This document shows, one piece after another, positions 27,410 to 57,259 of a stretch of 64,000 bases of DNA (the first letter of the stretch is position 1; the number at the start of each line of letters is the position of its first letter). The DNA is from Candidatus Zhuqueibacterota bacterium (GTDB lineage: Bacteria > Zhuqueibacterota > Zhuqueibacteria > Oceanimicrobiales > Oceanimicrobiaceae): positions 1-64,000 of the forward strand of contig JAJDAG010000086.1 in the NCBI GenBank assembly GCA_029262005.1, given 5' to 3'. A program made the translations under genes and the position numbers. Below the pieces are notes generated by a model. The model was not told the DNA's origin. It was given only the letters and a program-made list of their open reading frames with translations, and did no database searches.

Positions 27410-28780
27410 TTAACAAGCTCCCCAGTCAATCCCCAACCCGTGCATTTTCCGATACAAATTGGCCCGGTCCAATCCGAGAATCTTTGCGGCTCTGGAAACA
27501 CTGCCATTGTTTTCCTGCAAGGCGTTGAGAATGAACTGCCGCTCGAATTGTCGGCGGGCTTCGTGTAAGGTGGTGTGAGCGCTTGAGGCAGATATTATGC
27601 GGTCTTCGGGGACATCGAGGAAAGGTTTAACATGTTCGAGGTCTATGATCTGGCTGTAGTTTATTACCAAAATGCGTTCGATGAAATTTCGCAGTTGACG
27701 AATGTTGCCCGGCCAGTTGTGATATTTGAGGAAACGGCTGGCGGCCGGGGTCAAACGTGGCTCAGGCACACCGAGGGATTCGGCGAATTCCGCCAAAAAG
27801 TGACCTGTCAGAAGCGGGATGTCGCTGCGGCGCTCACGCAGCGCGGGTACGTGAATGTGGACAACGTTTATGCGGTAGTATAGATCTTCCCGGAACTTAC
27901 TTTTTTGTACTTCTTGAAGCAAGTTGTGGTTGGTGGCTGCCAGCAGGCGCACATTTACTTTAATCGTCTCCGTAGATCCCACTTTCTGAATTTCACCCGA
28001 TTCTAGAAAACGGAGGAGCTTGACCTGCATCATTTCATCCATATCGCCAATTTCATCGAGAAACAGGGTGCCGTTGTCGGCAGTTTCGAGGCGGCCTTTT
28101 TTAGCGGAGAGGGCACCGGTAAAAGCGCCTTTGGTGTGGCCAAAAAGCTCGCTTTCAAGGATTGTTGCCGGCACTGCGGCGCAGTTGATTTTTACCGACT
28201 GTCGATTGCTGCGTTTGCTGCCGGCATGAATGGCGGTTGCCACCAGCTCTTTGCCCGTGCCGTTCTCGCCTGAAATGAGCACCGAACTGTTGGTCGGGGC
28301 GATGCGCTCAATGAGGTTGTAAATCCGTTTCATTTCCCCGGACTGACCAATCATTTTGAAGCGCTGCAGGTTCTCTTGCTTGTATTGAGCCAGCTCCTGT
28401 TCGAGCTTGCCAAGAGCCAGGGCATTGCGAACGGTGACCAGGATTCGATCTCGGTCCAACGGCTTTTCAAGAAAATCATAAACACCGATTTTAGTCGCCT
28501 CGACAGCGCGGGGGACAGTGCCAAAAGCGGAAAACAAAATGATAGGAATGAGCGATTTTTGTTCCAGAAACTTCGTTGCCAATTCGAGCCCTGACACTTC
28601 CGGCATCATCAAATCGAGCAACACAAGGTCAAAATCAGCAGCCTCAAACCGTGCCAGCGCTTGACTGCTGCTTGTAGCAACGGTGGGTTGGTAGCCCTCG
28701 CGTTTGAGCATTTTTTTAAGAATTTCGCAGATGGGCGCTTCGTCATCCACGATCAGAATTGTGGGTTGGTGGTTCGGCAC
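27410..28780 (-). CDS. NtrC-family sigma-54-dependent response regulator
   Basis: 456 aa, a full-length NtrC-type activator. The receiver domain (1-120) has the acidic pair D12-D13, the phospho-acceptor D56 in LLDLMMP and the conserved K107. The AAA+ domain follows, with Walker A GENGTGKE at 171-178, the sigma-54 contact loop GAFTGA at 218-223 and Walker B LFLDE at 239-243. The C-terminus is a Fis-type helix-turn-helix ([20 protein letters not shown]). It should activate RNA polymerase with sigma-54 after phosphorylation by the sensor kinase encoded just upstream. The apparent start is GTG with no clear Shine-Dalgarno, so the exact start is uncertain. Target promoters were not identified in the window. 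Confidence 0.93.
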
Positions 28781-28930
28781 TAGATATTTTGAGAAACTCT
28801 ATCCTTTGCTTATTTGCCACGGCTTGAATATTACTTTCTGTATTTAGCGACTCCTTCCTTCACTTGACCGTGACAATCAGTATCCATTGATCAGGAAAGT
28901 CACCTGGTGTCGATGCATTCGTTGGGGTTA

Positions 28931-28953
28931 GAAATGCTGAAGCATTTCACTCC
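28931..28953 (-). repeat. Small palindromic repeat, copy 1
   Basis: On the minus strand this starts GGAGTG and folds into a hairpin (GAAATGCT arms, 28931-28938 and 28941-28948). It sits in the 213-base gap between the sensor kinase and response-regulator genes. It aligns without gaps to 31685-31707, with two compensatory base-pair changes. Confidence 0.65.
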
Positions 28954-28993
28954 TTCTGTTTTTGCAACCACCGTGCCAAGACCAAGGCCCGGC

Positions 28994-39731: not shown

Positions 39732-40088
39732 TCAGTTCAAGCCGATACTAGTCTGCAGGGTAACAACGTGCTTGGTGGTCATGTCCAGGAGTTGCAACAC
39801 GCATACGCACTCATCACTATTTAGACTCGGCAGAATGCGCACAAAGTTGGAGTTGGCATTCACTTTTTCGCCACTAGGCGTCCGGATTTCCACTTTGGTT
39901 GTAAAACGCTTAACCGTTTTGGCCGCATCTTTCCAGTGACTGACAAAGGCAACCCCACCGACACTCAAATTAAGTATCTGAACTTCAATGGGTTTTCCGT
40001 TTAATCCAAAAATTTTAATTCGCCACGCTTCTTCGCCTGACGTGTCAATACGAGGGTGTCTGCGTTTTTCTGCAGTCTGCTGGCTCAT
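39732..40088 (-). CDS. PilZ domain protein
   Basis: 118 aa from the ATG at 40088, which has AAAGGA 9-10 bases upstream (an in-frame TTG seven codons earlier has none). It is a single PilZ domain with both c-di-GMP signatures: the RxxxR-type box in EKRRHPRI and the [D/N]xSxxG-type box in NLSVGGVAF. The rest forms the six-strand barrel (KVEIRTPSGEKVNANSNFVR). Stand-alone PilZ proteins pass c-di-GMP signals to motility or secretion machinery; the partner is not visible here. Confidence 0.87.
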   Translation of the reverse strand: MSQQTAEKRRHPRIDTSGEEAWRIKIFGLNGKPIEVQILNLSVGGVAFVSHWKDAAKTVKRFTTKVEIRTPSGEKVNANSNFVRILPSLNSDECVCVLQLLDMTTKHVVTLQTSIGLN

Positions 40089-40159
40089 AAGAGTCGTTCC
40101 TTTGGTCAAAAAAAAGAATTATCGGTCTTATCTAAAGAAAGGCAAGTGAACAGATTCCC

Positions 40160-40360: not shown

Positions 40361-41650
40361 TCACAACTCGCCCAAAACGCGATAAACCAACTCCAACAAT
40401 TCAATGGGAATCAGGCTTCCCGGACTAACGACTTCCCTTACTTTTTGCGAAATTCTCCAACTTGCAGTCCAACTGCTCCAGCAATCATAATATTCAGGAC
40501 TGTGGGCATACTCAACAATGGCCCTGGAAATAATGTCGATCGCATTGTCCTTAACCTCAGGATCATTGAAATCAAACATCACCTTGATCTCATAAGCGGG
40601 CAGTAGATCTCGAACGCTATCCATAACAAGCGTTACATGATTTGTACTCGTCTGACCATTTGAGCCATTCTTTTCTTGCCAGTTGGTTGCACTTTCATTG
40701 CTATTTTGAAGGCTGACATTGCTTGCCATTGCATCTGCGCCAAAAGTCGATTTGTTGCGTTGGTATTTGTAATAATCAGGCCGTTTATCAGTGGGATGTT
40801 CATACAAAATAATCCAATCCGCCAATGGCTCCATCACATAATGATTTTGCTGATTGGCACGCACATAAAACCGCGTAAGCGTTGTGAAATCCGACTTTGA
40901 ACTGCCACGTAATCGAAGTAAATAGGTGCCGGCCGGCAAAGCAACATAAGTTTCAATTTCGGTTGATTTGCGGAAAACCTTGGCAAAAGCCTCTCTAATG
41001 CGAGTCTCGGCCAACTCAAAGGTATAGCCACCGGAAGTGCTGCCGGTCTGAGACAATTTTACCAGCTCCAAATTGTCAGGCTCAAAATTAGCTGTTACCA
41101 TGAAATTTCGAAAAGAAATTTTCACTTTACCGAAGTCTTGCAGCCCTCTGCCCTTCTCCTCAAGCAGATCCACGAGTCGGTAATAAGTTTTACTACCGGC
41201 CTGAATAGGGTGTGGCAGATCCTTGTAAAGGGCAGGCGGCTCATTGGTTCCTTCATAAACATTCAAAGACTCATAGTACTGGTAGCAGGCACGCTCAAAA
41301 AAATGAAAATTGAGCGGCGCCTTCTCAAGAAACATCAGCGACTTCAGAGTCAGAGCGCGCGAGGCGATATCACGCGGCTCCCGATTCTCTGTGACAGACA
41401 GGCTTATGGTCTCATAGATTTCCATAACCTGATCGATGTAAACACTCAAAAGCTTTTCAAATGCTGCCAGCTCATGTACTCTCGATTTATCCTCATAATA
41501 AAGTTTTTGATATTCGAGATACATGTGAAAAATGCTGCTCTCATGCTGACGCATGCGCGTGACCAGACCATCCTTTGCTTGAGTCCGCCCATTTGCTGTA
41601 AAACAGGTCAGCAAAACAGCGACAATAAATATACTCGCGACTGCTTTCAT
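40361..41650 (-). CDS. Exported protein of unknown function, paralogue of the next gene
   Basis: About 429 aa from the ATG at 41650, whose ATGA overlaps the stop of the upstream gene. The signal peptide is MKAVASIFIVAVLLTCF, cleaved near GRTQA. The mature N-terminal about 150 residues are helical and clearly paralogous to the neighbouring gene: ELAAFEKLLSVYIDQV here, ELLAFESLISIYVDEV there, each followed by IASR and later LPHxxxxGxKxxxRLxDLL. The C-terminal about 250 residues are unique, with a short PEGA-like stretch (ALPAGTYLLRLRGSSKSDF). No known family. It is the last gene of the leftward operon. Confidence 0.8.
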   Translation of the reverse strand: MKAVASIFIVAVLLTCFTANGRTQAKDGLVTRMRQHESSIFHMYLEYQKLYYEDKSRVHELAAFEKLLSVYIDQVMEIYETISLSVTENREPRDIASRALTLKSLMFLEKAPLNFHFFERACYQYYESLNVYEGTNEPPALYKDLPHPIQAGSKTYYRLVDLLEEKGRGLQDFGKVKISFRNFMVTANFEPDNLELVKLSQTGSTSGGYTFELAETRIREAFAKVFRKSTEIETYVALPAGTYLLRLRGSSKSDFTTLTRFYVRANQQNHYVMEPLADWIILYEHPTDKRPDYYKYQRNKSTFGADAMASNVSLQNSNESATNWQEKNGSNGQTSTNHVTLVMDSVRDLLPAYEIKVMFDFNDPEVKDNAIDIISRAIVEYAHSPEYYDCWSSWTASWRISQKVREVVSPGSLIPIELLELVYRVLGEL

Positions 41651-42219
41651 TTCCCGGCTCCATTCTGCGAACCTTGACTCGCCGTTTTGAAACATTCAAT
41701 CATTTGAAAATTTTTACTGCGATTGTCCAGAAGGTCGGCCAACCGCGTAAACAACTTACGCCCGACCCAGACTTCGTGGGGAAGTTTGGTGCTGAGAAGG
41801 GGTTCCTGCAGATTATTTTGTGAAAGCCGCAGCGCTTTCTTGTAATCTTCACAGGCTTTGGCATAGTTGGTTCGGTCTTCCTTGGTTCTCTCCAGGTAAG
41901 TAAGTGCCCTAAAAATCAAACACCTGGAAGCAATATTCTGTTGAGATTCAAGCGTGGTTCCCTTGACGCGCCAAAATGTGTCATACAAATTCAACACTTC
42001 ATCAACATAGATGCTGATAAGGGACTCAAAAGCCAGAAGCTCGTTGCCGCGACGTTTATCGATGTATAAAAATTTTTGCAACTCATTAAAAATCCGAACC
42101 ACGTCACGTTCCAGCGCTACCATCTGTTCCTCGAGCTGCATGTCCATTTGTTGGGCTGCGAGATCTGAGCAGTGACCGCAAATCGTCAACAACAAGGTGA
42201 TGTATAATATGACTTTCAA
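41647..42219 (-). CDS. Exported helical protein, shorter paralogue
   Basis: About 190 aa from a TTG at 42217-42219, the start with a usable Shine-Dalgarno (AAAGG, 8 bases) and the one that puts a signal peptide first (LKVILYITLLLTICGHCSDL). A longer frame reaches back into the upstream gene. The mature part is helical and matches only the helical half of the following gene. It has an LPHEVWVGRKLFTRLADLL segment near the end. It overlaps the next start by four bases. Function unknown. Confidence 0.75.
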   Translation of the reverse strand: MKVILYITLLLTICGHCSDLAAQQMDMQLEEQMVALERDVVRIFNELQKFLYIDKRRGNELLAFESLISIYVDEVLNLYDTFWRVKGTTLESQQNIASRCLIFRALTYLERTKEDRTNYAKACEDYKKALRLSQNNLQEPLLSTKLPHEVWVGRKLFTRLADLLDNRSKNFQMIECFKTASQGSQNGAGK

Positions 42220-42220
42220 T

Positions 42221-43663
42221 TCAGTCACCTTTGCGTGTGGTTGGAAATGAACGGGCGCTGTCCGCAATACATTTTATAATCGGTCTGAGCCAATGCAGAA
42301 CAGGCTGTAAACCAAAGCGTTCAGCGATTTGGCGGTAAACCCTGGCAAAAGGCAAGAGCTCGGCAGCTTTTTCAAATTCGAGTTGGCCACAAAGATCATT
42401 CTGACTCAGTCCCTGCGACTCCAAAACAGCTTTCCAGGCTTTGTCTACCATGTCCACAGCAAATTCTTTATTGCCGATTTCATAGCCGATTTCAGACAGC
42501 CGCAAATACAGATCTTCATAACCATCCCAGACAAATTTTTGTCTGCGGCCAAATCTACCGTCCGGCAGCAGCAACTCTTCACCTACGCGCTTGGCACGCG
42601 CATAAGCATTCATGCGATTTGTTGAGTCCGCGAAACTAAAATAATAGTTTACCAGACGAAAAATAGAGTTGCCGTAAACGCGTTTTATCTCAGTTGCCAG
42701 GGAAAGACTGATATCAGACCCTCGATCAACCAGAAGGCCGTAAGCCTGCTGAGCTTTCTCCCGCGCATACTGCAACTCTGCTTCAGGTTGCGCGTTGATG
42801 CCCTCTTTTTCCATAAACAAAGCAACCTTTGTCAGTTCTTTTAGCATCTCGGCCTGGCGCTGCGTGCTCTTGGCGTGCTGATAGGCCAACTCAAGATTTC
42901 TTCTGGTTTGGCGGTAATTATAATCATCAGGATAATTATTGAGATCCTTTTGTGCGGCAAAGCCGCGAGCACGCCATTCGTTGCCACGTAAATTAAATTC
43001 ATCCTCAACAGCGCGTTGTCTGTAAACCCGAAAAAACAGACTGTCCTGGCTTGAAAGCGACGCTTTCTCAGCCAAATCACAAGCCAGCCGAACCATAAAA
43101 CTGGTGAAAAGACCATTCGTCAAGGCGCTGTCAGGCGGTGTAATGGTCAAGTCAACAGCCTGGTTGGCAAAAATCCTGATCTTGTCAATCAGCTCCTGCG
43201 ATACATTCCAGTCATTTTTCGCATACAAACCTAAAATGCCCTGCCAGGCGTTCACCAAACCATCGAGGTAAGCGCCATCTTTCATCTCAGTGGCACGCAA
43301 CGATTCCATATAACCAAAATTAAAAGAAATCTCGGGATCACCAAAAAGCTCGTAACTCTTCTTCAGCGAAAGGATGGCCGCGTCAAGCGTCACCAGGTTC
43401 CGGTCTTGTAAATAGAGTTGATATTCAGCAAACCCTTTCAGTCGGTGGACGCTTTTCATGACATCGGTAAACCGGCATTCAACATCCGGTACGCTTTCAG
43501 CGCAACGGGTCAAAATCTGTTGGCTTAAATCAACCGTACGCGCATAATCATTGTTCCGGTACGTTTCCTGAATTTGTTCATACAGCTCGCCCACCGGTTG
43601 ACCATAAAGGCCGGAACCGCCAAGACTTAACAAGATGCTAACCAAACAAAGCAATCGTTTCAT
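42221..43663 (-). CDS. Exported helical/TPR-like protein
   Basis: 480 aa. A signal peptide (MKRLLCLVSILLSLGGSG, cleavage near LYGQP) is followed by an all-helical protein with TPR-like spacing (IQETYRNNDYARTVDLSQQIL, RRNLELAYQHAKSTQRQAEM, RMNAYARAKRVGEELL). It is not recognised beyond that. TPR-like periplasmic proteins are usually assembly or docking factors. It sits in the middle of the leftward operon; its stop is two bases from the next gene's start, so translation is coupled. Confidence 0.8.
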   Translation of the reverse strand: MKRLLCLVSILLSLGGSGLYGQPVGELYEQIQETYRNNDYARTVDLSQQILTRCAESVPDVECRFTDVMKSVHRLKGFAEYQLYLQDRNLVTLDAAILSLKKSYELFGDPEISFNFGYMESLRATEMKDGAYLDGLVNAWQGILGLYAKNDWNVSQELIDKIRIFANQAVDLTITPPDSALTNGLFTSFMVRLACDLAEKASLSSQDSLFFRVYRQRAVEDEFNLRGNEWRARGFAAQKDLNNYPDDYNYRQTRRNLELAYQHAKSTQRQAEMLKELTKVALFMEKEGINAQPEAELQYAREKAQQAYGLLVDRGSDISLSLATEIKRVYGNSIFRLVNYYFSFADSTNRMNAYARAKRVGEELLLPDGRFGRRQKFVWDGYEDLYLRLSEIGYEIGNKEFAVDMVDKAWKAVLESQGLSQNDLCGQLEFEKAAELLPFARVYRQIAERFGLQPVLHWLRPIIKCIADSARSFPTTRKGD

Positions 43664-43685
43664 TTTATTTCAACACTCTCCAATT

Positions 43686-44672
43686 TCAAAGTGAAAGCCT
43701 GAGTATCTGGCTGTACGCCTGTCTCAGCTCCTGAATTGTCGTTCTTTTGCTCTCTCCCAAGACCCGAATCCAGATATTCCCATCATTTCGCCAGTTCACT
43801 TCATGTGCCGTCCCATCGGAATAGGTAAATGAAATAACGAACCCGTTCCGGTGCCGCTTGAGAGCGCTGTTTGTCTGACCATACCTCCCTTTATTGAGTC
43901 GATCGATTTCGGATATAACTTTGTTCCAAAGCTTGTACCCCTCAGTACCAATTGTTGAAGACGAAAAATTCAAAATCTTGCCAGGCTCTTTGTTGAATTC
44001 CAAGGAATGCTGCTTGCGCTCCCTCATATTCCTTTTGTTTTTTTCTGCCTTCGGCTTATCGCTCAGGTCCATCCCGGAATCCGACGTTTGTACCGTTCTA
44101 CGTTTCGTCTCTGTTGAGCCGATATCCAGACCGCTGCCGGACTCGCCTGCCGCAAGTCGATTGCCAGCCCTAAATTTGACGCTGCCTTCATTGGAAGCCC
44201 GATTGCGCCGAAAATCAAGTTCTGGTCCGGAAGCACCACTCAAGGGGGAGTTTGATAGCAGATAATTGCCCATGTCATTGGAAGCCAAAGTCAACTGAGC
44301 TTCGTCAGATTCCTCGGCCAGCAATTCTTCTATTTGGTCCATAATTTCCTTAACTTCAGCAACATCCTCAGGTACCTTCTCTTCAATCACAACCGGAACA
44401 ACTGCCACCACTTGTTCCATAACAACCTGTTGCGGTGGTGGCGGAATATCCAGAACATCAATTAGCTCGAAATTCACTTCCGCATCTCGCACGACATATT
44501 TTTTCGTATCCACATCCGCCACAAGCCGAAACAACAATACGGACAAAATCAAACTGGCGACGATGCTTTTCTCAACATTAATACGGTACCTGCGTTTGCA
44601 GGCGCCAAAATCGGTTTCCTCCGAACCTTTGCCAAGGACAAACCGGGGGGTTTGGTTTTGATGTTTAATCAC
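43686..44672 (-). CDS. TonB-like single-pass inner-membrane protein without a typical TonB C-terminal domain
   Basis: 328 aa. The short cytoplasmic start is followed by one membrane segment (about 35-52, SIVASLILSVLLFRLVAD), then a TonB-type layout: FELIDVLDIPPPPQQV, a Val/Glu/Pro linker and an acidic helix (EIMDQIEELLAEE). The middle is polar and low-complexity. The C-terminal about 85 residues (TEGYKLWNKVISEIDRLNKG, FVISFTYSDGTAHEVNW) do not show the TonB signature. It may span the periplasm and act on the other envelope proteins of this operon. No ExbB/ExbD genes are in the window. Confidence 0.75.
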   Translation of the reverse strand: MIKHQNQTPRFVLGKGSEETDFGACKRRYRINVEKSIVASLILSVLLFRLVADVDTKKYVVRDAEVNFELIDVLDIPPPPQQVVMEQVVAVVPVVIEEKVPEDVAEVKEIMDQIEELLAEESDEAQLTLASNDMGNYLLSNSPLSGASGPELDFRRNRASNEGSVKFRAGNRLAAGESGSGLDIGSTETKRRTVQTSDSGMDLSDKPKAEKNKRNMRERKQHSLEFNKEPGKILNFSSSTIGTEGYKLWNKVISEIDRLNKGRYGQTNSALKRHRNGFVISFTYSDGTAHEVNWRNDGNIWIRVLGESKRTTIQELRQAYSQILRLSL

Positions 44673-44741
44673 TTTATGTTCCCCACTTCCATGTTTGATA
44701 AAAACCGCGAACAGATAATCGGCAAACTGAGACGCTGAAAA

Positions 44742-45749
44742 TTATCTTGAAACCGAGCTGAGCTCCGGCAGAAAGGCCGGTTTTTTATGCCCGAACCGTA
44801 GCAGGATACATTGTAAAACAGACTCGGGAGCACGGTACTGGACATTTACAAAAAGGCTGCTTGGCCGTTGAAACGAGCTGGTGTCCAGACGCAAATTAAA
44901 AAGTCGCTCTTCACCGAACTTTAAAACAGCGGAACCAAACTTCGGGATCTTGGCAATGTAAATGCCTTTCCCAACGTAGATAGCCGGAATATCAGTTGGC
45001 GAGGAATCGCTGGTTGAAAACAACCGCAAGTAGTCGCCAAAAACCAAATCAGAAACATCTGAAGGATGAAAAGTCGGTTTCTTGGTTCCGGTCAAAATTT
45101 CGTTCGCGTCTTTGAATTTCGATTTGCCGGCAGCCTCAAGAATATCTTCGGCCAACTGCATGATACTTACAAAATCCGATGGTGTATCAACCGGTGTTGG
45201 CGCGTTTTTGAAATCATCCTGATACGCGTACCTGGAGATGATCCTGGTCCAGACTGACCGCTTGGACTCAAACGTTGGGACAACCTCAAGCTGCAGTACC
45301 TTGATTTCGTAACGCGCCTGTTCGACCAGCGAGTTCTTGACGATGTTCACATAAATAGTATACTCACGCGCGAGATTGTCAGGACGTGGTGGCCGGGACC
45401 GCAGCAAACCGAGGATGTTGTCACGCGCGGTAATGCGCCTGTTGCGCAAGGATTGATCGATGGCGCGAAAAACTGCACGAATAGAATTCTGCTCGATATC
45501 ATCGTCCTCATAGGCGCAGCCAAAAGTCTGAATATAATTATCATTTTTATAAACTGTTTCAATAGGCTTGTTAATTGCCCTTTTCATAAACCCGAGCAAC
45601 GTGTTGCTATCGCCTTTCGTCCAGCACTTCTCTTTATATTTTCGAGTACTCTCCTGAACAACACCAGCTGAAATCGCCTGCGACAACGGTGATAACAGGG
45701 TAATAAATTGCACCAGAACTATCGTGATGCCAAAAAATAACACACGCAT
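44742..45749 (-). CDS. Exported protein of unknown function, first gene of the leftward operon
   Basis: About 335 aa from the ATG at 45749; this start gives a good signal peptide (MRVLFFGITIVLVQF, cleavage near SQAISA), whereas the longer frame adds 31 polar residues. The mature part is mixed alpha/beta with two cysteines (EKCWTKG, TFGCAYEDDD) and a C-terminal beta-rich section (IPAIYVGKGIYIAKIPKFG). No known family. The promoter region upstream is shared with the rightward kinase operon. Confidence 0.75.
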   Translation of the reverse strand: MRVLFFGITIVLVQFITLLSPLSQAISAGVVQESTRKYKEKCWTKGDSNTLLGFMKRAINKPIETVYKNDNYIQTFGCAYEDDDIEQNSIRAVFRAIDQSLRNRRITARDNILGLLRSRPPRPDNLAREYTIYVNIVKNSLVEQARYEIKVLQLEVVPTFESKRSVWTRIISRYAYQDDFKNAPTPVDTPSDFVSIMQLAEDILEAAGKSKFKDANEILTGTKKPTFHPSDVSDLVFGDYLRLFSTSDSSPTDIPAIYVGKGIYIAKIPKFGSAVLKFGEERLFNLRLDTSSFQRPSSLFVNVQYRAPESVLQCILLRFGHKKPAFLPELSSVSR

Positions 45750-45911
45750 CTTGTTGTACCCGCTTATTGTTTTAAGTGATAGAGCGCTGGACCCATCTTT
45801 TGGAACAGATAGGTTTCTAAAGTGATAAGTTAGCTCAGACACTCCGTTCTGCGTAAAAAAAAAATCATTTCTTTGCAGATGAGTGGCAAATGGAAATTCA
45901 GACGTGAATCT

Positions 45912-46220
45912 GCAATTCCGAAACTATGGCAGTACATCTAATTTTAAACTCAGACAATTCAAGTCAAAACAGGGATGTTCACCATGAGTTTTACCATCTG
46001 CCCCTTGTAGAAAACAATTGCCATCCAGCGAGACCAAGAGGGTAACATGGACCGGCAAGCGTCGTTTGAACATATTATGCCGAATGTTTCACTTGGAGAC
46101 ACCAGCCGAAAGATCGTCCATTTTGGAACATGCAATTGCTCAGAGTTGAAACAGTCCGGCCCCATCAGGTATTAACAGCTACTGGCACATGAATTGCGCT
46201 CAGGCCGTCAACAGCAATTC
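45912..46220. promoter_or_regulatory. Cluster of GCAATT/AATTGC half-sites in the divergent promoter region
   Basis: GCAATT or its complement occurs at 45912-45917, 46016-46021, 46132-46139 (as the palindrome GCAATTGC), 46192-46197 and 46214-46219. The last two form a 7-bp inverted repeat (GAATTGC/GCAATTC, 46191-46220). About 0.2 such hexamers are expected by chance in 480 bases on both strands. Candidate promoters overlap the cluster: TTGAAA (46146) with TATTAA (46170) for the rightward operon, 18-base spacer, and TTGACT at 45962-45967 (minus) for the leftward one. A shared regulator binding here is an inference. Confidence 0.45.
46047..46175 (+). CDS. Possible 42-residue small protein upstream of the kinase gene
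   Basis: The ATG at 46047 has AGAGG 5 bases upstream. The frame runs 42 codons to TAA at 46173 and encodes a polar peptide with a CNC motif. It lies in the divergent promoter region and overlaps the proposed -10/-35 elements, so one of the two calls is probably wrong. No membrane segment or known motif. Only weakly supported. Confidence 0.2.
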   Translation: MDRQASFEHIMPNVSLGDTSRKIVHFGTCNCSELKQSGPIRY

Positions 46221-46328
46221 AACTGTTCGTGTCACTTCGCCGTCATTACCCAAAAAACCCTAACATACACTTGTTCTGTCACCGGCAGATTCAGGTTTAT
46301 TTGATATCAAAGGAGCAACAGAAGACAG

Positions 46329-49016: not shown

Positions 49017-49061
49017 TGACTTGAGAATAATTAATTTAGCTTATCGACAGGAGATACTTTA

Positions 49062-51404
49062 ATGCCCAAAATGATCGTCAAAAAAAAGGCAGAGGTAATC
49101 AGTGAATTCGATTTGAGCGGTTCACAAACCTCGTTTACAATCGGATCGGAAAACAACAATGATGTGGTCATCGCCGATAAACTGATTTCCATGATGCACG
49201 CCAGCATCGAACGAACAGCAAATCGATATTTTATTCGGGACTTGCAAAGCGCATTCGGCACCTATGTTAACGGCAACCGAATCACCGATATTGTGGAATT
49301 AAGGAACGGAGACAAAGTTCAAGTCGGTGAACACGCAATTGTCTTCGACAATCCACTCGAAAGTATGGACATTTCTTTTGATCAAAAAAACGGTCAGGGC
49401 CACACCAACCTGGATGAATTCGAGGCAAAAGTCCGTAAGGAGGACCTACCGCTTCTGCGCCAGGGCAGTATCGACAAAACCAATTCAATTCCATACCAAC
49501 TGCTGGCAATTTATGGTCCGTATGAAGGCAAGCGCTACCAATTGCGGCAACATGAAACCAAAATCGGTCGCGATGACAATCTTAATGATATTATTCTAAA
49601 CAAGAACAAAAAAGGCGAAGCGGATCAAAGCATATCCCGACGACACGCAACCATCATGTATAAAGATGGGTCTTTTTTTGTGGCAGACAAACGCAGCAAA
49701 ACACGCACATATGTAAACAGAACTGTTGTGCCCGAAGGCGGTGATGTCGAATTGTTTATGAATGATGAAATAGAAATTGTAAGCGATCAGCAAAGCACCA
49801 TTTTTCGGCTTGCAGAAGAGGGGCAATTGGACTATTCACCGCCGAAAAAAGCCGGTGTCTGGCTGGTTCGTTACAAATCCAAATTCACAACCGGACTGGT
49901 TCTGGCAGTCGCTCTGCTTGGCATGTTTTTCGCTACCACAGGCTTCCGCGAAAGAACCATGTTGACACAAAAACCGGACCCGCTTACTCTTGAACTCAGT
50001 TACTGGGCAACAGACAAAAGTATGGCGCTACAGAGTATGGCTTCGGACGGTGTTTTGGCAGACAAAGTCTTCAGTCTGGTTCCCGCTGTTTCCGATGTTA
50101 ATGGAGACGGAGTGCCTGACATCATTATGGCCAATGTCACAAACAAACCCTTGCTTATCGATGGCGTTTCAAAGCAAGCAAAGTGGATTATCGATACACT
50201 GCCGGCATCGCCGCGTTCAGCCCTCCAGGCAGCAGACATTAACCAGAACCAGTTAAGCGACTTGATTTATCTAAGCAACGACGGCCGTGTGGTCGCCATT
50301 GATGGCCAGTACGGAGCCGAAATCTGGATTAGTCCTTTTTTCGGTGCAGACCTGACAGGTCCTCCGGTTGTTGATGATTTTGACGGCGATGGTTTAAACG
50401 ATGTCGCTATCGCGGATGTTGACGGCAACATCCACATTGGCTATAATCAGGTACTCACTATGGAATGGTCATCAATAAGCACCCGCATCCCAATCGCTTG
50501 CCCGCTAACCAGCGCAGATCTCGACAAAGATGGGGATTCAGAGCTGGTCTGTGGCTCGGAACGCGGCATCGTTTTTATTCTTGATGGTGTAAATAAAGAT
50601 ATTTTTGGAACCATTGATATCAACGACGAGCTTAACCAGGCCCTAGGGTCAGTATATGAAGACAATCAAATTCGCTATCCAGTGGGCATCGCTGATCTGA
50701 ATGGCGACGGCCAGGAAGACTTGTTGATCACCAGCGTGCAGGGGCGCATCATCGCAGTAGATGGCAGCACCCGGCACCGGCTCTGGCACGATGTTCTCAC
50801 CAGTGAACTTACTCTTAGAACCGACCACCCATTCCCGTTTGCATTAGGTGATTTTGACGGTGACGCGCTTTATGACGTTGTCACCGGTTCAGATCAAGGT
50901 GAAATCAGAGCATACTCTGGAAAAGGATCGCATCAGAAAGCTAAAATAATCTGGAGTTTGATGCCTGACAGACCCTCTGCAGTTTATCAGAGTTTTGTGG
51001 TCGGCGATATCAATAAAGATCATACTTCAGATGTTATTTACACCGACGAGGCCAGTATGCTTTGGCTCATAGATGGCAAATCCGGCACCAACTTACTCGG
51101 TGCAGCAGAACCCACAACATCGGAGGCCAGCATGCCGTTAGCTGCTGACCTGGAAAGTGATGGCTATCTGGATATTGTTATGGCAACCAAATCCGGTATT
51201 GTCTTCCAGTATAAATCAAACAGTCGAATTCCAAAAGGGTCGGTAATATGGGGGCAACAATTCGGGCAAAGCCAAAACCGGGTCAAACCGGCGTATGAAC
51301 TGCCTGCAACAATGAAAGCAGATATGTCGATGCTCGTGGGAATACTGCTCTTCATTGGCAGTGGCGCAACAACTTTCGTGATACGTAATCGCCGTAAGAA
51401 GTAG
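49062..51404 (+). CDS. Membrane protein with two FHA domains and a periplasmic FG-GAP propeller
   Basis: 780 aa. FHA1 (about 25-85) is degenerate at the phosphopeptide arginine (IGSENNND) but keeps SMMH; FHA2 (about 150-240) has the full signature (KIGRDDNLND, SISRRHATI). A membrane segment (about 275-292, GLVLAVALLGMFFATTG) is followed by about 450 residues of FG-GAP/VCBS units with calcium-type loops (DVNGDGVPDII, DFDGDGLNDVA, DLDKDGDSELV, DLNGDGQEDLL). A last membrane segment (about 755-773) ends in RNRRKK. The topology is therefore FHA domains inside, propeller outside. It should bind phosphothreonine on the kinase or its targets. AGGAGA precedes the ATG; the gap to the kinase gene is 45 bases. 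Confidence 0.93.
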   Translation: MPKMIVKKKAEVISEFDLSGSQTSFTIGSENNNDVVIADKLISMMHASIERTANRYFIRDLQSAFGTYVNGNRITDIVELRNGDKVQVGEHAIVFDNPLESMDISFDQKNGQGHTNLDEFEAKVRKEDLPLLRQGSIDKTNSIPYQLLAIYGPYEGKRYQLRQHETKIGRDDNLNDIILNKNKKGEADQSISRRHATIMYKDGSFFVADKRSKTRTYVNRTVVPEGGDVELFMNDEIEIVSDQQSTIFRLAEEGQLDYSPPKKAGVWLVRYKSKFTTGLVLAVALLGMFFATTGFRERTMLTQKPDPLTLELSYWATDKSMALQSMASDGVLADKVFSLVPAVSDVNGDGVPDIIMANVTNKPLLIDGVSKQAKWIIDTLPASPRSALQAADINQNQLSDLIYLSNDGRVVAIDGQYGAEIWISPFFGADLTGPPVVDDFDGDGLNDVAIADVDGNIHIGYNQVLTMEWSSISTRIPIACPLTSADLDKDGDSELVCGSERGIVFILDGVNKDIFGTIDINDELNQALGSVYEDNQIRYPVGIADLNGDGQEDLLITSVQGRIIAVDGSTRHRLWHDVLTSELTLRTDHPFPFALGDFDGDALYDVVTGSDQGEIRAYSGKGSHQKAKIIWSLMPDRPSAVYQSFVVGDINKDHTSDVIYTDEASMLWLIDGKSGTNLLGAAEPTTSEASMPLAADLESDGYLDIVMATKSGIVFQYKSNSRIPKGSVIWGQQFGQSQNRVKPAYELPATMKADMSMLVGILLFIGSGATTFVIRNRRKK

Positions 51405-51454
51405 GAATCTCTTAATAAATGCTAATTGTAAATTAAAAGGACACGAGCTTATTC

Positions 51455-53095
51455 ATGACTGCAAACATCAACCAACGAGTCAACATGGCTGCGGCCAGCG
51501 ACGTTGGAACAGCCCGGAAAGATAATGAAGATTCACTATACTATTCCGAGGCAAAAAATTTCTTTATCGTCTGTGATGGCATGGGGGGACATGAAAAAGG
51601 GGCGCTCGCCAGCAAGATAGGGTGTGAAACCTTGCGAGATCTACTATTTGCCAAAGACACAACAATGGGTCTCGTCATAAAAAATACTATTTTTGATGTC
51701 GCCAAAGCGGGTCACGGGGTGAATTCAGAATTACCGCATTCTGCCCAAAAAATCATTGCCGGCATTCGATTGGCCAACCGCAGAATACTGGCCAACTGCT
51801 TCGGCAGCAAACGAATGCAAGGCATGGGCACAACACTTGTAGCTGGTTACTTCCACCAGGGCCACATTATCATTGCCCATGTGGGAGACAGCAGGCTATA
51901 CCGTTTGCGACGGGATGTGCTCACCTGCTTGACCACAGACCATTCCTGGCTCAACGAACTACTCGAAGACAAAGAGATCAGTGAAAAAGACGCAGAGCAT
52001 TTCAAGAAGAAAAATGTTTTAACGCGCGCTTTAGGTATTTCCGCAACTGTCAAAATTGATTTGCAAATAGATTGTGTTGAGCCGGACGATCTTTACCTTG
52101 CCTGTAGCGATGGCCTCTACAACGCGCTAAGCGGTGACCTGCTAAAAAGCATTTTGACAGCCTACCACGGTTCATTACAGAACAAAGTAACCAATCTGGT
52201 CAACCGGGCCAAAATGATGGACGGTTCGGACAACATAACAGCCGGCCTTATGCACATTGCGGGCACGGGTGAAGCCACTACTGAACTATTTCAGGAGAAA
52301 CTAACTGTTCCACCTGAACAGGAAAATATCACAGATTATCTCAACCAGGTTGTTAAAAATATTTACCCTGTCAGACTGGCTTCGAACAGCGGTGGGAAGA
52401 AACGGCTCAGGCTCGCTGGGGCTGTTGCCGCAGCGGTGCTCCTCGCGGGCTTGCTGCTTTTTTATACAAGCACGGCCCTGAAGAGTAAACCGGCAGGCGT
52501 GCAAACGGCACTGTTCACTGAAAACATTACGCCGGTTGCAGCCGGACAAAGACCCAGTTCAGCACCTGTAGAAAATGCGGGCCAAATCGCCCTGGTTCAA
52601 ATTACAGCCCCGGGAGCCTTGCTGTCACTTGAAGAGATAAGCGGTGTTCGTGTGCTTGACAGTATTTCAGAATTACGTTCAGGAAAGCCAATTTCAGCAG
52701 GAACTTATACATGGGCGCTCGCCGACGCATACGAGAATATTATTTATAAAAAAGAAAATATTTCTCTTGAGCCGCTTAATAATTATCAAAGCATTCAAGA
52801 TGGGCAAGAGGCTACATTGGACGAATTCACCGCAAGCAACAATGCAGCAGAGCGCTTACACCCACAGCGGTCGCTTATTTTTCTTGCCGGAAATTTTGAA
52901 TCTGCCGATTATCAAGACGCCTCCATCTTCATCAACGACAAGCGCTTTGGCCCATTGATGCGTTTCAGAGACAGTGGCTTTCACCTTAGCAGAGGCGTTT
53001 ATGACATAAAGATAGTCAGCAGCAAGAAAAAAGTCCTCAAACAAAAATCGCAGGTCAAGATAAACCGTGGCGAAACCCTCGCCTTGGAGTTTTAA
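51455..53095 (+). CDS. Transmembrane PP2C-family Ser/Thr phosphatase
   Basis: 546 aa. The N-terminal PP2C domain (about 8-270) has all the metal-binding motifs: ARKDNEDS, CDGMGGHE, AHVGDSRLYR, SDGLYNAL and DGSDNITA. A membrane segment (about 318-337, LAGAVAAAVLLAGLLLFYTS) is followed by about 200 periplasmic residues with PEGA-like strands (SAGTYTWALADAYENIIYKK, SRGVYDIKIVSSKK). It likely reverses the phosphorylation made by the kinase two genes upstream. An anchored phosphatase with its own outside domain is unusual and suggests that removal of phosphate is also signal-controlled. Confidence 0.93.
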   Translation: MTANINQRVNMAAASDVGTARKDNEDSLYYSEAKNFFIVCDGMGGHEKGALASKIGCETLRDLLFAKDTTMGLVIKNTIFDVAKAGHGVNSELPHSAQKIIAGIRLANRRILANCFGSKRMQGMGTTLVAGYFHQGHIIIAHVGDSRLYRLRRDVLTCLTTDHSWLNELLEDKEISEKDAEHFKKKNVLTRALGISATVKIDLQIDCVEPDDLYLACSDGLYNALSGDLLKSILTAYHGSLQNKVTNLVNRAKMMDGSDNITAGLMHIAGTGEATTELFQEKLTVPPEQENITDYLNQVVKNIYPVRLASNSGGKKRLRLAGAVAAAVLLAGLLLFYTSTALKSKPAGVQTALFTENITPVAAGQRPSSAPVENAGQIALVQITAPGALLSLEEISGVRVLDSISELRSGKPISAGTYTWALADAYENIIYKKENISLEPLNNYQSIQDGQEATLDEFTASNNAAERLHPQRSLIFLAGNFESADYQDASIFINDKRFGPLMRFRDSGFHLSRGVYDIKIVSSKKKVLKQKSQVKINRGETLALEF

Positions 53096-53150
53096 ACGGA
53101 TTGAAAAGTAATGTTAATGAGTAACGCTTTCGCATTGAGGAGGTAAAAAA

Positions 53151-55025
53151 TTGAAGACACGACGCCTTAGCCTGACACAGCTTTGCCTCATGATTATTGC
53201 CATCATAACCCTATTAGAGACAACAGCGTTCACGCAATCAAACAACCAGCAAGCTATCAGGCTGTTCAATAAGGGAATTCAAGAAAAAGATGCTCGAACC
53301 AAACTCGACTTCTACAAGAAAGCACTGGAGCTTGACCCAACCTTTGTTGAGGCAAAGTACAACATGGGCCTGACGTACAAGAAGCTCAGAGATTACATCC
53401 AGGCCGAATCATACCTTTTGTCCGCACGCGATGCCATAAAGGCAAATTCGTCCAGGAAGCTCGCCGACAGAATTCTCTATCACCTTGCTCTTTCGCAAAA
53501 ACATCTTGGCCAATATGCTGAAAGCGAACAATCTCTACTCGCAGCCAATAAGGTCGCCGGTAGCACCGCGATGAAGTCGCAGATCATTTTTGAGCTTGGA
53601 CGCACTTATCATGAAATGAAACGCTATCCTGAAGCGTTGGCAACGCTGCGTGAAGGCCAAAAAAAGTTCAAAAGCAACAGTACCTTTTTTCAAAACCTCA
53701 TCACCATTATTGAGACGGGCCGAAAAACAGACCAGCTTGAGCTCGACATTCAGAAGTCAATCGACGCAGGTGATTTTGCCCTGGCCCAAACGCTGATTCT
53801 TCAGCTTCAGGAAATCAGTCCCTATCATGCCGGTCTCACTGAAAAAAAAGCCTTGATTGACTCCTTGATTAACTCAAAAGCCAAAGATGGATTTCTGCAG
53901 GAGATGTTTAGCACTGCTGAAAAACAAAGTGATGAAGGAAATATCAAATCCGCAATTAGCACACTTGAAACAATTCTGCAAAATGATACAAACAATGAGG
54001 CTGTTCACGCCAAACTGGAAGGACTGAAAACAAAGTATGAAGAACAGCAAACAAAAGAACGGGCGCAACGAGAATATGACAACGGTCTGAAAGCACTGCA
54101 AGAGCAAAATTGGACCCGGGCAATCATTGCTTTTGAAAAAGTCGTAGAACTCGCTCCAAACTTTGAAGACTCAGAGGCGCGATTACGTGAAGCCAACCGC
54201 AAATTAGAATCCCAAGGTACTGAAACCATTGTTCGGCAATATTATATTGATGGCGTTGCTGCAATGAATCGAAAGGACTTGCGTTCAGCGCTGGCTTCTT
54301 TTGAAAAAGCGTCAAATCTGAATCCAAACTATAGAGACATCAAAACGCTAATCAAGCAACTTAGAAGAGCCTCACAAAACAATACCATGACAAGTCCGAG
54401 CATGGCCTCGAATGAACACTTCAAATCCCTTTACGACCAGGCTGTGATCTCCGTGGGCGAAGAAGAGTGGATGCAAGCCGTACTAACCCTGGAAAAACTG
54501 CGGATGCTGGCGCCAAACGACCACAATGTTTTACGCTTACTCATCCAGGCCAAAGACAGACTGAATATGAACAAAAAATCAGAAAATACAGATTCGGCAG
54601 ATAACGGCTTTAACAAAATGGTTTACGTAAGTGGCGCTGTTATTGCATTGATAGCGTTGCCAATGTTTGGCTTTGTTGCATTTTCAGCGACAAGCCGGGC
54701 ACGTTTGCATTACTTGCGTGGTAATTACATTAAGGCTGCACGAGTTTACGAACGCATGCTGGCGAAACATCCGGAGCGCCTTAAATATTATGGCACCCTG
54801 GCGAACATTTATCTCGTGCTCGGCCGCAATGACGCGCAGGCGTTGCGTGTGTTTAAAATGCTCGTGGATCTCAATCTGGCCAAGCATATTCACCCGCAAA
54901 TAAATTCCATCCTTTCACAAAAATATCTGAGTGACGGCCAGCACGACAATGAAGCCATCACCATACTTGAAAACGAACTCATGGTAGAGCAAAACAACCA
55001 GGAGTCAACTGACGAAACGGCATGA
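53151..55025 (+). CDS. Membrane-anchored TPR protein
   Basis: 624 aa. The start is TTG at 53151, supported by AGGAGGT at 53138-53144 with a 6-base gap; no ATG fits. A signal peptide or anchor (about 8-25) is followed by TPR units (about 30-460: ALELDPTFVEAKYNMGLTYK, AIIAFEKVVELAPNFEDSE, ALASFEKASNLNPNYRD). A membrane segment (about 491-511, VSGAVIALIALPMFGFVAF) leads to a second TPR block (HYLRGNYIKAARVYERML). The outside part is therefore TPR between two membrane segments, with a cytoplasmic TPR tail. It probably docks partners of the kinase system. It overlaps the next gene by four bases (ATGA). Confidence 0.9.
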   Translation: MKTRRLSLTQLCLMIIAIITLLETTAFTQSNNQQAIRLFNKGIQEKDARTKLDFYKKALELDPTFVEAKYNMGLTYKKLRDYIQAESYLLSARDAIKANSSRKLADRILYHLALSQKHLGQYAESEQSLLAANKVAGSTAMKSQIIFELGRTYHEMKRYPEALATLREGQKKFKSNSTFFQNLITIIETGRKTDQLELDIQKSIDAGDFALAQTLILQLQEISPYHAGLTEKKALIDSLINSKAKDGFLQEMFSTAEKQSDEGNIKSAISTLETILQNDTNNEAVHAKLEGLKTKYEEQQTKERAQREYDNGLKALQEQNWTRAIIAFEKVVELAPNFEDSEARLREANRKLESQGTETIVRQYYIDGVAAMNRKDLRSALASFEKASNLNPNYRDIKTLIKQLRRASQNNTMTSPSMASNEHFKSLYDQAVISVGEEEWMQAVLTLEKLRMLAPNDHNVLRLLIQAKDRLNMNKKSENTDSADNGFNKMVYVSGAVIALIALPMFGFVAFSATSRARLHYLRGNYIKAARVYERMLAKHPERLKYYGTLANIYLVLGRNDAQALRVFKMLVDLNLAKHIHPQINSILSQKYLSDGQHDNEAITILENELMVEQNNQESTDETA

Positions 55026-57259
55026 CAAACAAAACAAACCCTGACAAAGACAGCCGCATGTCACAGCTTCTGTACACGCTGGGCAAATCGTATTTAGAGC
55101 GTCAACATTTTCAGGAAGCCAACGACAAATTCGGTCAATTACTTGAGTTTACGCCAAACGACCCGGATATTTGCCTTAACCTGGCAAGCAGCCGAATAGG
55201 CCTGCAGGACGTTTCAGACAACTCTCTCGAAATATATGAAAGGGCGGTTGCACTCAATCCGGACAACGATGTAATTTACACACAAATAGCCGACCTGTTT
55301 CGGAAGTTTAATATCGACACAGCATTTGCCACGGCAATGGTTCAAGATTCAGACTCACCACAAATTGAAGCTTCAGGCGCACCTGCTGAGGCCTCTCTTG
55401 ATTCAGTTGAGGCCATGAAGGAAGAGGCTTTCGCCAATATAAGAGCTGAGCTGGAAGAACTTTGGTGGAAAGAACATTTCGACGAGGCCAGAAAACTTCT
55501 AAACAACATGCGGGAAAAGGGAAATGCTTCCGAAACAGCCACGGCACTGACTGAAGCCTATGAACATCTGGCAAAACAAAAAAAAGTCAACAAGAAAGCA
55601 ACCTTGCAGTTGCTCCGGGACAACATCCCGGCCATTTCACCAGAAACATCCTTGCAGGCATTACGTGATTATTTGACGCTAAAATATGTTTTGCCCAAAG
55701 AGGATAGAAGGCAAACACCTGAAGCCCCTGATCGTGACTCGAAAGAATATGAATTTATCCTTGGCATGGTTGCAATGGACGATTTTTTTGGAAAATTGCA
55801 AGGCCGGCAAAATGGCCATGAGCAATTGCCGGAAAGCCAGGATGGTCAAGACATTCTGCAGAATATCCTTGGCATCGCTGAGTCAGAACCGCAAAATAAT
55901 GAACCCGACGACGAAGAGATTGAAGGTTTCATGTTCCTGCAACTCATCTCTTCTGCTGGCCAAAATGACGTTCCAGACCGGATTACGAGTCTGGTCAAGA
56001 CGCACCTTTCACGCATTCCACAAAGTAAATTAAGGCGCGCGGGCACAGGATTTGTCAGCCTGGCAGTCAACCCGCTTGACCAACTCCGGGACATCGTAAG
56101 ATTGTTGCGCAGCCTGGAGAGCTATAATGCAGCAGCAGGAAGCAATGCCCAGGTGAAATTGCTTTGTGCGCTTTTCATTAGTAGCCGTCACTCCGAAGAA
56201 GCATCTGAATTTCACGAATTGCTATTAAAGGGAATCCACTTGATGCGCGTAGCTGAACAAGAGTTGAGTGTCAACGGCAGCGCAGGCAGAATCCTGTTTG
56301 CAGGTGAAGAAGCCTGGAAAGAAAAACTTCTCGATGCAGATATTGTCATGAAGTCGGATTACCGGCTCGCCTTATTGCCTGGTCACGAACTTACCTGCTT
56401 CGAGGTGGCATGGCAGAGAGCACTTGAAGATGCCACTGAAGCGCGGCCGTACCTGTTGGGTGATCTTGAGGTAAGACGTTGCCTCGAACAGCATCAAGGG
56501 TATTCAACTCTGATGGCGCGCAATAAGCAACTGGGGCGTGCAGTCATTGTCAAAGCGCTCTCCAAAGCTAAGGCGCGGCACTACATAAGCGACAAAAGCA
56601 AAAAAGACAGTCTCTACGATGGTATTCGAAAAATTGGCAGGCTGAATCACCCGAATATCGCCACGCTTTTCGACATGGGGGCGCATGACAATACCATCTA
56701 TTACACGCGGGAGTATATCGAAGGTAAGCATTTCTCCGAGAAGGATTTCACTAATGCCAACTGGGAGTTTGAATTTGCAGAGCAACTGCTAAAGATAATT
56801 CGCGCCCTGGCGTATGTGCACAATCAAGGCGATGCCCATTTGAATCTGAAGCCGGCAAATATCTGGCTCAACGAAGCAGAAAATATCAAAATCTCGGATT
56901 TTCGCGTGAAAGCATTTTGTGCAGAAGATGTCAGCAATGGCGGTTGGAAATACCAGGCTCCCGAAATTTTATCCGGTGAAGCCGGGGGTGTGCGCTGCGA
57001 CATTTACTCGCTCGGTATCATTTGTTACGAAATCCTCGCACAAAAGCACCCTTACGATCTCGCCAATATCAGCACTCCGGAAGACATTACAAAAAACAGC
57101 ATCCCTGAGTTGGAAAACAAAGAACTCAGTTTCCACGACGGTTGGAACAAGATTTTCTTGAAAATGACAGCACCTGAACCAGGTCAAAGGTACGCAGAGC
57201 TAATCCAGGTTCTGGTTGACCTCAGGACGCTGCAACTGGAGTTGTTGCCGCCGGATTAG
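55022..57259 (+). CDS. Cytoplasmic TPR protein with a degenerate (pseudo)kinase domain
   Basis: 745 aa, no signal or membrane segment. TPR units (about 10-105) and a helical middle region of unknown type (about 130-470) precede a protein-kinase-like domain (about 489-740). The ATP Lys is kept (K511, VIVKAL) and APE is present (QAPEIL), but the glycine loop is absent. The catalytic Asp is replaced (HLN at 606-608 for HRD) and DFG is DFR (626-628). The domain is predicted to be inactive as a kinase, or to bind nucleotide only. Coupled to the TPR membrane protein, it probably acts as a scaffold or allosteric regulator of the active kinase. It is followed by a long stem-loop terminator. Confidence 0.9.
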   Translation: MTNKTNPDKDSRMSQLLYTLGKSYLERQHFQEANDKFGQLLEFTPNDPDICLNLASSRIGLQDVSDNSLEIYERAVALNPDNDVIYTQIADLFRKFNIDTAFATAMVQDSDSPQIEASGAPAEASLDSVEAMKEEAFANIRAELEELWWKEHFDEARKLLNNMREKGNASETATALTEAYEHLAKQKKVNKKATLQLLRDNIPAISPETSLQALRDYLTLKYVLPKEDRRQTPEAPDRDSKEYEFILGMVAMDDFFGKLQGRQNGHEQLPESQDGQDILQNILGIAESEPQNNEPDDEEIEGFMFLQLISSAGQNDVPDRITSLVKTHLSRIPQSKLRRAGTGFVSLAVNPLDQLRDIVRLLRSLESYNAAAGSNAQVKLLCALFISSRHSEEASEFHELLLKGIHLMRVAEQELSVNGSAGRILFAGEEAWKEKLLDADIVMKSDYRLALLPGHELTCFEVAWQRALEDATEARPYLLGDLEVRRCLEQHQGYSTLMARNKQLGRAVIVKALSKAKARHYISDKSKKDSLYDGIRKIGRLNHPNIATLFDMGAHDNTIYYTREYIEGKHFSEKDFTNANWEFEFAEQLLKIIRALAYVHNQGDAHLNLKPANIWLNEAENIKISDFRVKAFCAEDVSNGGWKYQAPEILSGEAGGVRCDIYSLGIICYEILAQKHPYDLANISTPEDITKNSIPELENKELSFHDGWNKIFLKMTAPEPGQRYAELIQVLVDLRTLQLELLPPD

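Follow-up and report, generated by a model that had tools for sequence, protein, structure and literature searches.

Genome comparison suggests that a membrane kinase/FHA/phosphatase kit of Candidatus Zhuqueibacterota is a reusable switch set beside cell-envelope machines

A 64,000-nucleotide stretch of a Candidatus Zhuqueibacterota genome (contig JAJDAG010000086.1, positions 1 to 64,000), here termed the window, carries a rightward operon that encodes a membrane Ser/Thr kinase, an FHA/FG-GAP protein, a PP2C phosphatase and two TPR proteins. The operon is divergent from a leftward cassette of five genes. Genome comparison suggests that the rightward operon is a kit that serves as a reusable switch and is set beside cell-envelope machines. 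The interpretation favoured here, which we judge about evenly poised between right and wrong, is that this module acts as a trans-membrane phospho-switch that is reused with different envelope machines, and that in the window it is paired with a new, phylum-specific envelope assembly. The features are as follows.

40361..41695, minus strand: L1, exported protein with an N-terminal domain common to L2
41647..42267, minus strand: L2, exported protein that looks paralogous to the L1 N-terminal part
42221..43663, minus strand: L3, exported protein of ~480 aa (conservation)
43686..44672, minus strand: L4, TM/Pro-rich protein (layout: tail, TM, linker, C-terminal domain)
44742..45842, minus strand: L5, exported protein (AlphaFold2 model of pLDDT 80, Foldseek, hhalign)
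45843..46328, no strand: divergent intergenic region between the operons, 486 bp (ORF positions)
46329..49016, plus strand: R1, membrane Ser/Thr kinase (Pfam: Pkinase 6.7e-42, PEGA 3.4e-26)
49062..51404, plus strand: R2, FHA/FG-GAP protein (Pfam: FHA 2.7e-34 in two stretches, FG-GAP_3 1.2e-22)
51455..53095, plus strand: R3, PP2C phosphatase (PP2C_2 1.3e-8 in Pfam; Stp1/PP2C 2e-62 in NCBIfam)
53151..55025, plus strand: R4, TPR/TM protein (Pfam TPR, hydropathy)
55022..57259, plus strand: R5, TPR-pseudokinase (Pfam: TPR and Pkinase 2.6e-28)

The initial annotation had described five closely spaced rightward genes divergent from five leftward ones, and all ten open reading frames are confirmed; successive rightward frames are separated by 45, 50, 55 and -4 bp. 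It had also placed a domain of four of the five rightward products outside the membrane, and hydropathy agrees. R1 has a cytoplasmic kinase domain, a TM at 451-469, and PEGA repeats and a carboxypeptidase-regulatory-like domain outside (Pfam, hydropathy). These outside domains stand in place of PASTA repeats, which are absent, and R1 scores below the PASTA-kinase cut-off (Pfam, NCBIfam). R2 displays two N-terminal FHA domains, a TM at 277-295, an FG-GAP beta-propeller region outside and a C-terminal TM at 756-774 (Pfam, hydropathy), and R3 has one TM at 318-336 (hydropathy) with its C-terminal domain outside. R4 consists of a signal at 6-24, an exported TPR domain of ~470 aa, a TM at 493-511 and a cytoplasmic TPR tail (Pfam, hydropathy). 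R5 shows no TM by hydropathy and is a cytoplasmic TPR protein with a pseudokinase domain at its C-terminus.

The beta3 Lys, HxD Asp, Asn and DFG of R1 are conserved in 37/37 homologues, the metal-binding Asp residues of R3 in 35/35, and the GR/SxxH/N signature of the second FHA domain (FHA2) of R2 in 42-43 of 45; the Arg of FHA1 is retained in only 4 homologues. Judged by these residues, the R1 active site and the R3 site are intact and FHA2 is canonical, which bears out the earlier description of an envelope-spanning Ser/Thr phosphorylation kit. The catalytic Asp of R5, also annotated earlier as a pseudokinase, is replaced in all 28 homologues (by Asn in 22 and Arg in 6), with HLN instead of HRD, and the Lys (28/29) and the DFG Asp (27/27) are retained. 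R5 is thus a pseudokinase by sequence, a kinase fold minus its catalytic residue; its inactivity is predicted.

Each of the five leftward open reading frames has an N-terminal signal or anchor segment, and the true start of L5 is probably near residue 32, going by its homologues. The products had been said to lack known families, and indeed L1-L5, singly or as families, gave no Pfam or NCBIfam match reaching cut-off and no match to any known machine in profile searches, while profiles of L1, L3, L4 and L5 against solved-structure sequences returned nothing credible. L3 is the best-conserved member (80-88% within the window's family, 55-62% between families). The window's L2 shares 34% identity with the L1 homologue of genome G027, and L2 and L1 look paralogous in their N-terminal part. 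Beyond this domain L1 has a beta-sandwich-looking stretch, a variable linker and a C-terminal region, as read by eye; profile comparison of L1 with the R1 outside domains was not significant, which leaves the presence of a PEGA-like domain unproven. Of the five, only L4 is predicted to reach into the cytoplasm; it comprises a cytoplasmic tail of ~35 aa, one TM, a Pro-rich disordered linker and a small alpha-beta4-alpha C-terminal domain, for which Foldseek gave nothing below E 0.05 and no PDB match at E<=0.001.

In structure and profile, the C-terminal half of L5 (~260-311) is similar to the latter half of NlpC/P60 domains. Foldseek gave a probability of up to 0.99, yet an E value of 0.02. The hhalign score was 32.6, over 49 columns only; the reversed profile scored 23.6, and none of 60 column shuffles exceeded 20.7. 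L5 differs from NlpC/P60 proteins in lacking the catalytic His, the aligned position holding a His in 0/14 homologues; the Cys half gave no profile alignment, and L5 does not match NLPC_P60 in Pfam.

The ten-gene divergent block is conserved in four genera of the window's family (G000, the window's genome, and G024, G026 and G027), and because of this conservation the arrangement is not attributable to chance. The left flank is common to G000 and G024 only, and most of the shared right flank to G000 and G026 only. Among 82 genomes of the KSB1/Calditrichota phylum, the cassette is present in 17 and the module in 35, with up to three copies per genome. All 17 cassette genomes have a module, and none of the 47 module-less genomes has a cassette (Fisher p 2.8e-8, not corrected for kinship). 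The cassette is a real conserved unit, and its association with the module is still not random; the co-distribution is strongly shaped by descent. In the FHA protein tree, the window-type clade (support 100/99) comprises cassette-bearing genomes only, and families f1 and f12 have a window-type module in 11 of 12 cassette genomes. The f13 module is sister to the window type, and no cassette accompanies it. In G028 the cassette is at a contig edge, and a window-type FHA or PP2C gene was not found.

A GTDB-wide scan with L3 as the only query found cassette matches restricted to this phylum; its two peptide patterns had been derived from members of the phylum itself, so highly diverged relatives in other groups could escape it. 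For the module, the sampling outside the phylum covered ~300 genomes; kinase, FHA protein and PP2C are still together in the distant genomes G196, G279 and G090.

The initial annotation had proposed a single system of two operons in which the leftward genes encode the machine or structure under phosphorylation control; it took recurrence of both operons in genomes without type VI genes as support, and their independent occurrence as the finding that would count against it. This proposal is borne out in part. The four-genus block and the 17/17 versus 0/47 distribution agree with the recurrence. Independent occurrence is nevertheless partly seen: 18 phylum genomes have a module without the cassette, and in other cassette-bearing families the two are separate in every case where the contig extends to the cassette's flanks. 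The single two-operon system is contradicted by the sister copies of the module. In the genome of the window and in relatives, two paralogous modules, A and B, flank a type IV pilus-like cluster on both sides, with an RsbU/RsbW-like pair adjoining copy B; one copy in G066 adjoins Tad-like genes, and one in G013 adjoins ExbB-ExbD-ExbD and a TM/Pro-rich protein. Some modules have no obvious machine alongside, within the flanks retrieved. What the rightward operon encodes is a module that can be reused, not one half of a single two-operon device.

Alternatively, the module could be a general signalling kit for the envelope or cell surface with its targets elsewhere, such as the type IV pilus-like machine or RsbU/RsbW-like global regulators, and the cassette an independent envelope system that merely came to lie alongside when the ancestor of a single family arose. 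The module-only genomes, the unlinked cassettes outside the window's family and the pilus-like and RsbU/RsbW-like neighbours all favour this explanation, but the ten-gene block has persisted in four genera despite changes in both flanks, and module-less genomes lack the cassette; we regard it as possible and lean against it. An unlikely alternative is that the operons share only a regulator or a condition, for example surface attachment or growth state, through divergent co-expression and with no direct biochemical contact. The divergent layout with its 486-bp spacer would suit it, as would the PilZ-like gene (named by eye) adjoining the cassette in G000 and G024. However, G026 and G027 have an additional TPR-like gene inside the spacer, and the shared promoter region is thus not strictly conserved.

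It is very improbable that the two operons are a divergent locus for type VI (or TssL/TssM-like) secretion together with the kinase/FHA/PP2C pathway that normally accompanies it. The PpkA/Fha/PppA pathway logic is similar, and L2 has a weak DotU/TssL match (E 0.007 and 0.026), but this is below the curated cut-offs and covers 40 residues only, in an exported protein, and L2 was rejected as a DotU. The sister modules adjoin type IV pilus-like genes, and the sheath gene VipA/TssB (PF05591) is missing from the window's genome and all 17 cassette genomes, in line with the initial annotation, which had noted no type VI gene; it is found in four other phylum genomes. Because of the missing VipA gene, a type VI locus was rejected.

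Under the favoured interpretation of a reusable phospho-switch, the PEGA kinase R1 would be the writer, R2 the reader and R3 the eraser. R1 to R4 might each sense the envelope through an outside domain, and R5 might act as a scaffold in the cytoplasm. Module copies would be sited next to trans-envelope machines, the window copy being paired with the L1-L5 cassette. The cassette proteins are envisaged to build an envelope assembly peculiar to the phylum, with L4 as its inner-membrane anchor and L1, L2, L3 and L5 as the portion in the periplasm or farther out, where L5 perhaps touches peptidoglycan by means of its degenerate NlpC/P60-like domain. As the short cytoplasmic tail of L4 is the sole part of the cassette predicted to be reachable by the kinase, its phosphorylation and subsequent recognition by FHA2 represent the likely link, modelled on the reading of phospho-TssL by Fha in type VI secretion; within this tail (residues 1-35), Thr8, Ser17 and Thr20 are candidate sites. 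More specifically, and with the balance tilted slightly against it, we tentatively propose that L1-L5 make up a hitherto undescribed trans-envelope machine of this phylum and that a dedicated module assembles or switches it, the same kind of kit also serving pili and ExbB/ExbD complexes.

Sets of kinase, FHA protein and phosphatase are known so far for single machines, e.g. type VI secretion. No paper was found on a PEGA kinase with FHA and phosphatase, on FHA with FG-GAP, or on KSB1 with pili and FHA. A modular kit whose writer, reader and eraser are all envelope-exposed would, if true, point to a general principle of plug-in phospho-control of trans-envelope machines. It also exposes a concrete unknown, a five-protein cassette with relatives outside one phylum undetected in the scan made.

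Comparisons can be drawn with several known systems. L4, initially annotated as TonB-like, shares with TonB/TolA the order of TM, disordered Pro-rich linker and small globular C-terminal domain. Proteins of that family carry a Ser/His motor-binding motif in the TM helix (PMC12204202), whereas SxxxH is found in the TM of 0/15 L4 homologues. There is no TonB_C Pfam match in 15 members, the C-terminal fold is alpha-beta4-alpha with no fold match, and the cassette is without ExbB/ExbD; only the architecture agrees, and L4 was rejected as a TonB family member. The Myxococcus Agl-Glt system likewise has an FHA protein, GltG, in a trans-envelope machine. R2 matches the GltG model weakly (1.9e-9), far below cut-off and confined to the FHA domain, and L1-L5 have no match to NCBIfam Glt models.

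There is also a likeness in gene content to PknB/PrkC signalling, with a trans-membrane kinase whose Hanks domain has an intact active site and an adjoining PP2C, and to the mycobacterial PknB-PstP-FhaA-MviN locus, which has a trans-membrane kinase, PP2C and FHA proteins. In mycobacteria, FhaA regulates the pseudokinase protein MviN after phosphorylation by PknB, and thereby wall synthesis is controlled (PMC3989709; PMC6554272). In the window, however, PEGA is found and not PASTA, the pseudokinase forms a soluble TPR protein of its own, FHA is fused to a propeller and wall-synthesis genes are not adjacent. In the type VI PpkA-Fha-PppA pathway, kinase, FHA reader and PP2C eraser are similarly encoded together and act on an envelope machine at its inner-membrane component (PMC3953482, PMC5995506), with Fha binding a phosphothreonine of TssL (PMC3953482). 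The window's module differs in that the sheath gene is absent, both the phosphatase and the FHA protein are anchored in the membrane and carry domains outside it, the latter protein bears an FG-GAP propeller, and TPR and pseudokinase partners are present.

Two divergent operons make up the locus, and the positions that the initial annotation gave for their ten genes were all confirmed in the window. The rightward operon (the module) encodes a Ser/Thr phosphorylation kit and the leftward one (the cassette) five exported proteins.

46329-57259, + strand: rightward operon R1-R5
R1, + strand: kinase with PEGA repeats
R2, + strand: two FHA domains and FG-GAP repeats
R3, + strand: PP2C
R4, + strand: TPR protein with two hydrophobic segments
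R5, + strand: TPR and kinase fold
45842-40361, - strand: leftward operon, in the order L5, L4, L3, L2, L1

An N-terminal signal or anchor is present in each of L1-L5. In agreement with the initial annotation, none of the five belongs to a family at the curated cut-off; for L1, L3, L4 and L5 the 14-15 homologues of each that were scanned gave the same result. L1 and L2 appear to have an N-terminal part in common (domains of L1 were read by eye), and L3 is the most conserved member.

L5 was found in 17 of the 82 genomes of the phylum, most genomes compared being draft MAGs. L1-L4 adjoin it wherever the contig is long enough, and strong L3 matches come from the same 17 genomes. A GTDB-wide L3 profile scan, with one genome per species, yielded 15 loci. 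Their records are titled KSB1 or Calditrichaeota/Caldithrix, or belong to MAGs that are unplaced or carry another label (in one case 'Bacteroidetes'). The latter MAGs match known phylum genomes; one short KSB1 contig is unmatched. This recurrence and the scan establish that the cassette is real, conserved and, as far as the L3 scan reaches, confined to the phylum.

The proposed pairing of the two operons holds in one direction. The ten genes are the only ones around the locus common to four genera, represented by the window's genome (G000), G024, G026 and G027. The left flank is common to G000 and G024 only, and most of the shared right flank to G000 and G026 only; L2 of G027 is intact, though masked by an overlapping open reading frame. 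The module is present in every cassette genome, whereas 18 genomes carry it without the cassette and 47 have neither (Fisher p 2.8e-8, with kinship ignored and no species tree). In families f9-f12 cassette and module are not neighbours, a view limited by shorter contigs in G064, G067 and G070. Four genomes of the window's family and six of f12 form the window-type clade of the R2 tree, and each of them has the cassette; the sister group, f13, lacks it altogether. Within f1 and f12 the window-type module accompanies the cassette in 11 of 12 genomes, the exception being G028, whose cassette lies at a contig edge and in which neither a window-type FHA nor a window-type PP2C was detected. Thus the cassette either requires a module or is nested within the set of genomes that have one; the module itself does not need the cassette.

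In G028, the genome lacking a window-type module, L1 occupies two overlapping frames (L043:3370-4718), which points to a broken gene or to a sequencing error. In the window, the gene immediately downstream of the cassette is PilZ-like by eye (39732-40109, - strand); it and pgk are retained beside the cassette in G024, not in G026 or G027.

The module was counted by R2 at E<=1e-20 and occurs in 35 of the 82 genomes. Genomes of the window's family carry up to three copies, as many as the window's own genome has. Around R2, the genes R1 and R3 recur in unchanged order, usually along with R4 and R5. Outside the phylum, the R2 profile matched four of ~306 sampled genomes at E<=1e-40. Two (G196, G279) have the full triad of kinase, FHA/propeller and PP2C together, G090 has it together but with an R2 relative consisting of the FHA part only, and in G333 FHA and PP2C lie close to a contig edge. 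The triad is therefore wider than the phylum; neither R4/R5 nor the cassette was seen among these genomes outside it. In the 1422-aa kinase of G196 (L186:2931-7199), response-regulator receiver, kinase, PEGA and TPR domains are fused.

Across the module copies found, R1 is intact at the catalytic Lys, Asp, Asn and DFG in 37/37, and the metal-binding Asp residues of R3 are present in 35/35. In R2, FHA2 retains the Arg, Ser and His that bind phosphothreonine in 42-43 of 45 copies, while FHA1 retains its Arg in only 4. R5 lacks the catalytic Asp in 28/28 but retains Lys and the DFG Asp. From these residues, the module is predicted to comprise a single writer, a single good reader and a single eraser, together with one conserved pseudokinase.

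Sister modules lie beside other machines. Paralogous copies A and B, both on contig C83 of G000 (L009-L010), bracket a type IV pilus-like cluster with a secretin, PilT-like and PilB-like ATPases, a PilC-like protein and pilin-like proteins (secretin, T2SSE and PilN/SPOR domains confirmed, remaining names by eye). This arrangement recurs in the window's family: copy A adjoins the secretin end in G000, G023, G026, G027, G028 and G029, and copy B the pilin/PilC end in G000, G025, G026 and G027. Within this region (L009-L011, G000:C83), copy B also diverges from RsbU/RsbW-like genes, beyond which lies an Mla-like ABC transporter set (by eye). The second module copy of G066 (L106, G066:C213) adjoins Tad-like pilus genes; an outer-membrane-type protein lies between its kinase and FHA genes, and two further FHA proteins follow the module. 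The G013 module (L108:12149-15089) is followed by MotA/ExbB (fused to an Ig-like domain), a pair of ExbD genes and a TM/Pro-rich, TonB-like-looking protein truncated by the contig end.

Elsewhere in the window, at 1-23051 (- strand), dozens of cadherin-like repeats (by eye) make up two giant open reading frames of 3371 aa (open at the window edge) and 4267 aa. Both are likely surface adhesins, and the larger has a sorting-type sequence (NYPNPFN...) at its C-terminus. At 27410-31090 (- strand), an NtrC-type response regulator adjoins a histidine-kinase-like protein that begins with a repeat region (by eye).

The C-terminal half of L5 resembles NlpC/P60. Its structure model (pLDDT 80) matched MepS/Spr, CwlO and phage NlpC/P60 proteins in Foldseek with probability up to 0.99, at E of only ~0.015-0.1. 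The L5 profile scored 32.6 against 25 NlpC/P60 domains from relatives (P 0.0003), compared with maxima of 20.7 for 60 column shuffles and 18.7 for eight other profiles, and 23.6 for the reversed profile. The catalytic His, however, is not kept, and we lean towards a degenerate domain, perhaps one contacting peptidoglycan. A regular NlpC/P60 gene lies just past the window's right end (G000:C190:65896-66162).

L4, initially described as TonB-like, is indeed laid out like a force transducer, with a tail, a TM, a Pro-rich linker and a small domain. The likeness to TonB itself ends there, with no SxxxH motif in 15/15 homologues and no TonB_C match; its C-terminal alpha-beta4-alpha domain, modelled fairly confidently (pLDDT 84), has no PDB match. 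L4 is the sole cassette member with a predicted cytoplasmic part, ~35 residues with several Ser/Thr (Thr8, Ser17 and Thr20 in the window). If R1 acts directly on the cassette, this tail would for that reason be the target. Information on assembly state or wall contact would come from the outside domains of R1-R4. The reader would be FHA2 of R2, by analogy with Fha, which reads phospho-TssL (PMC3953482).
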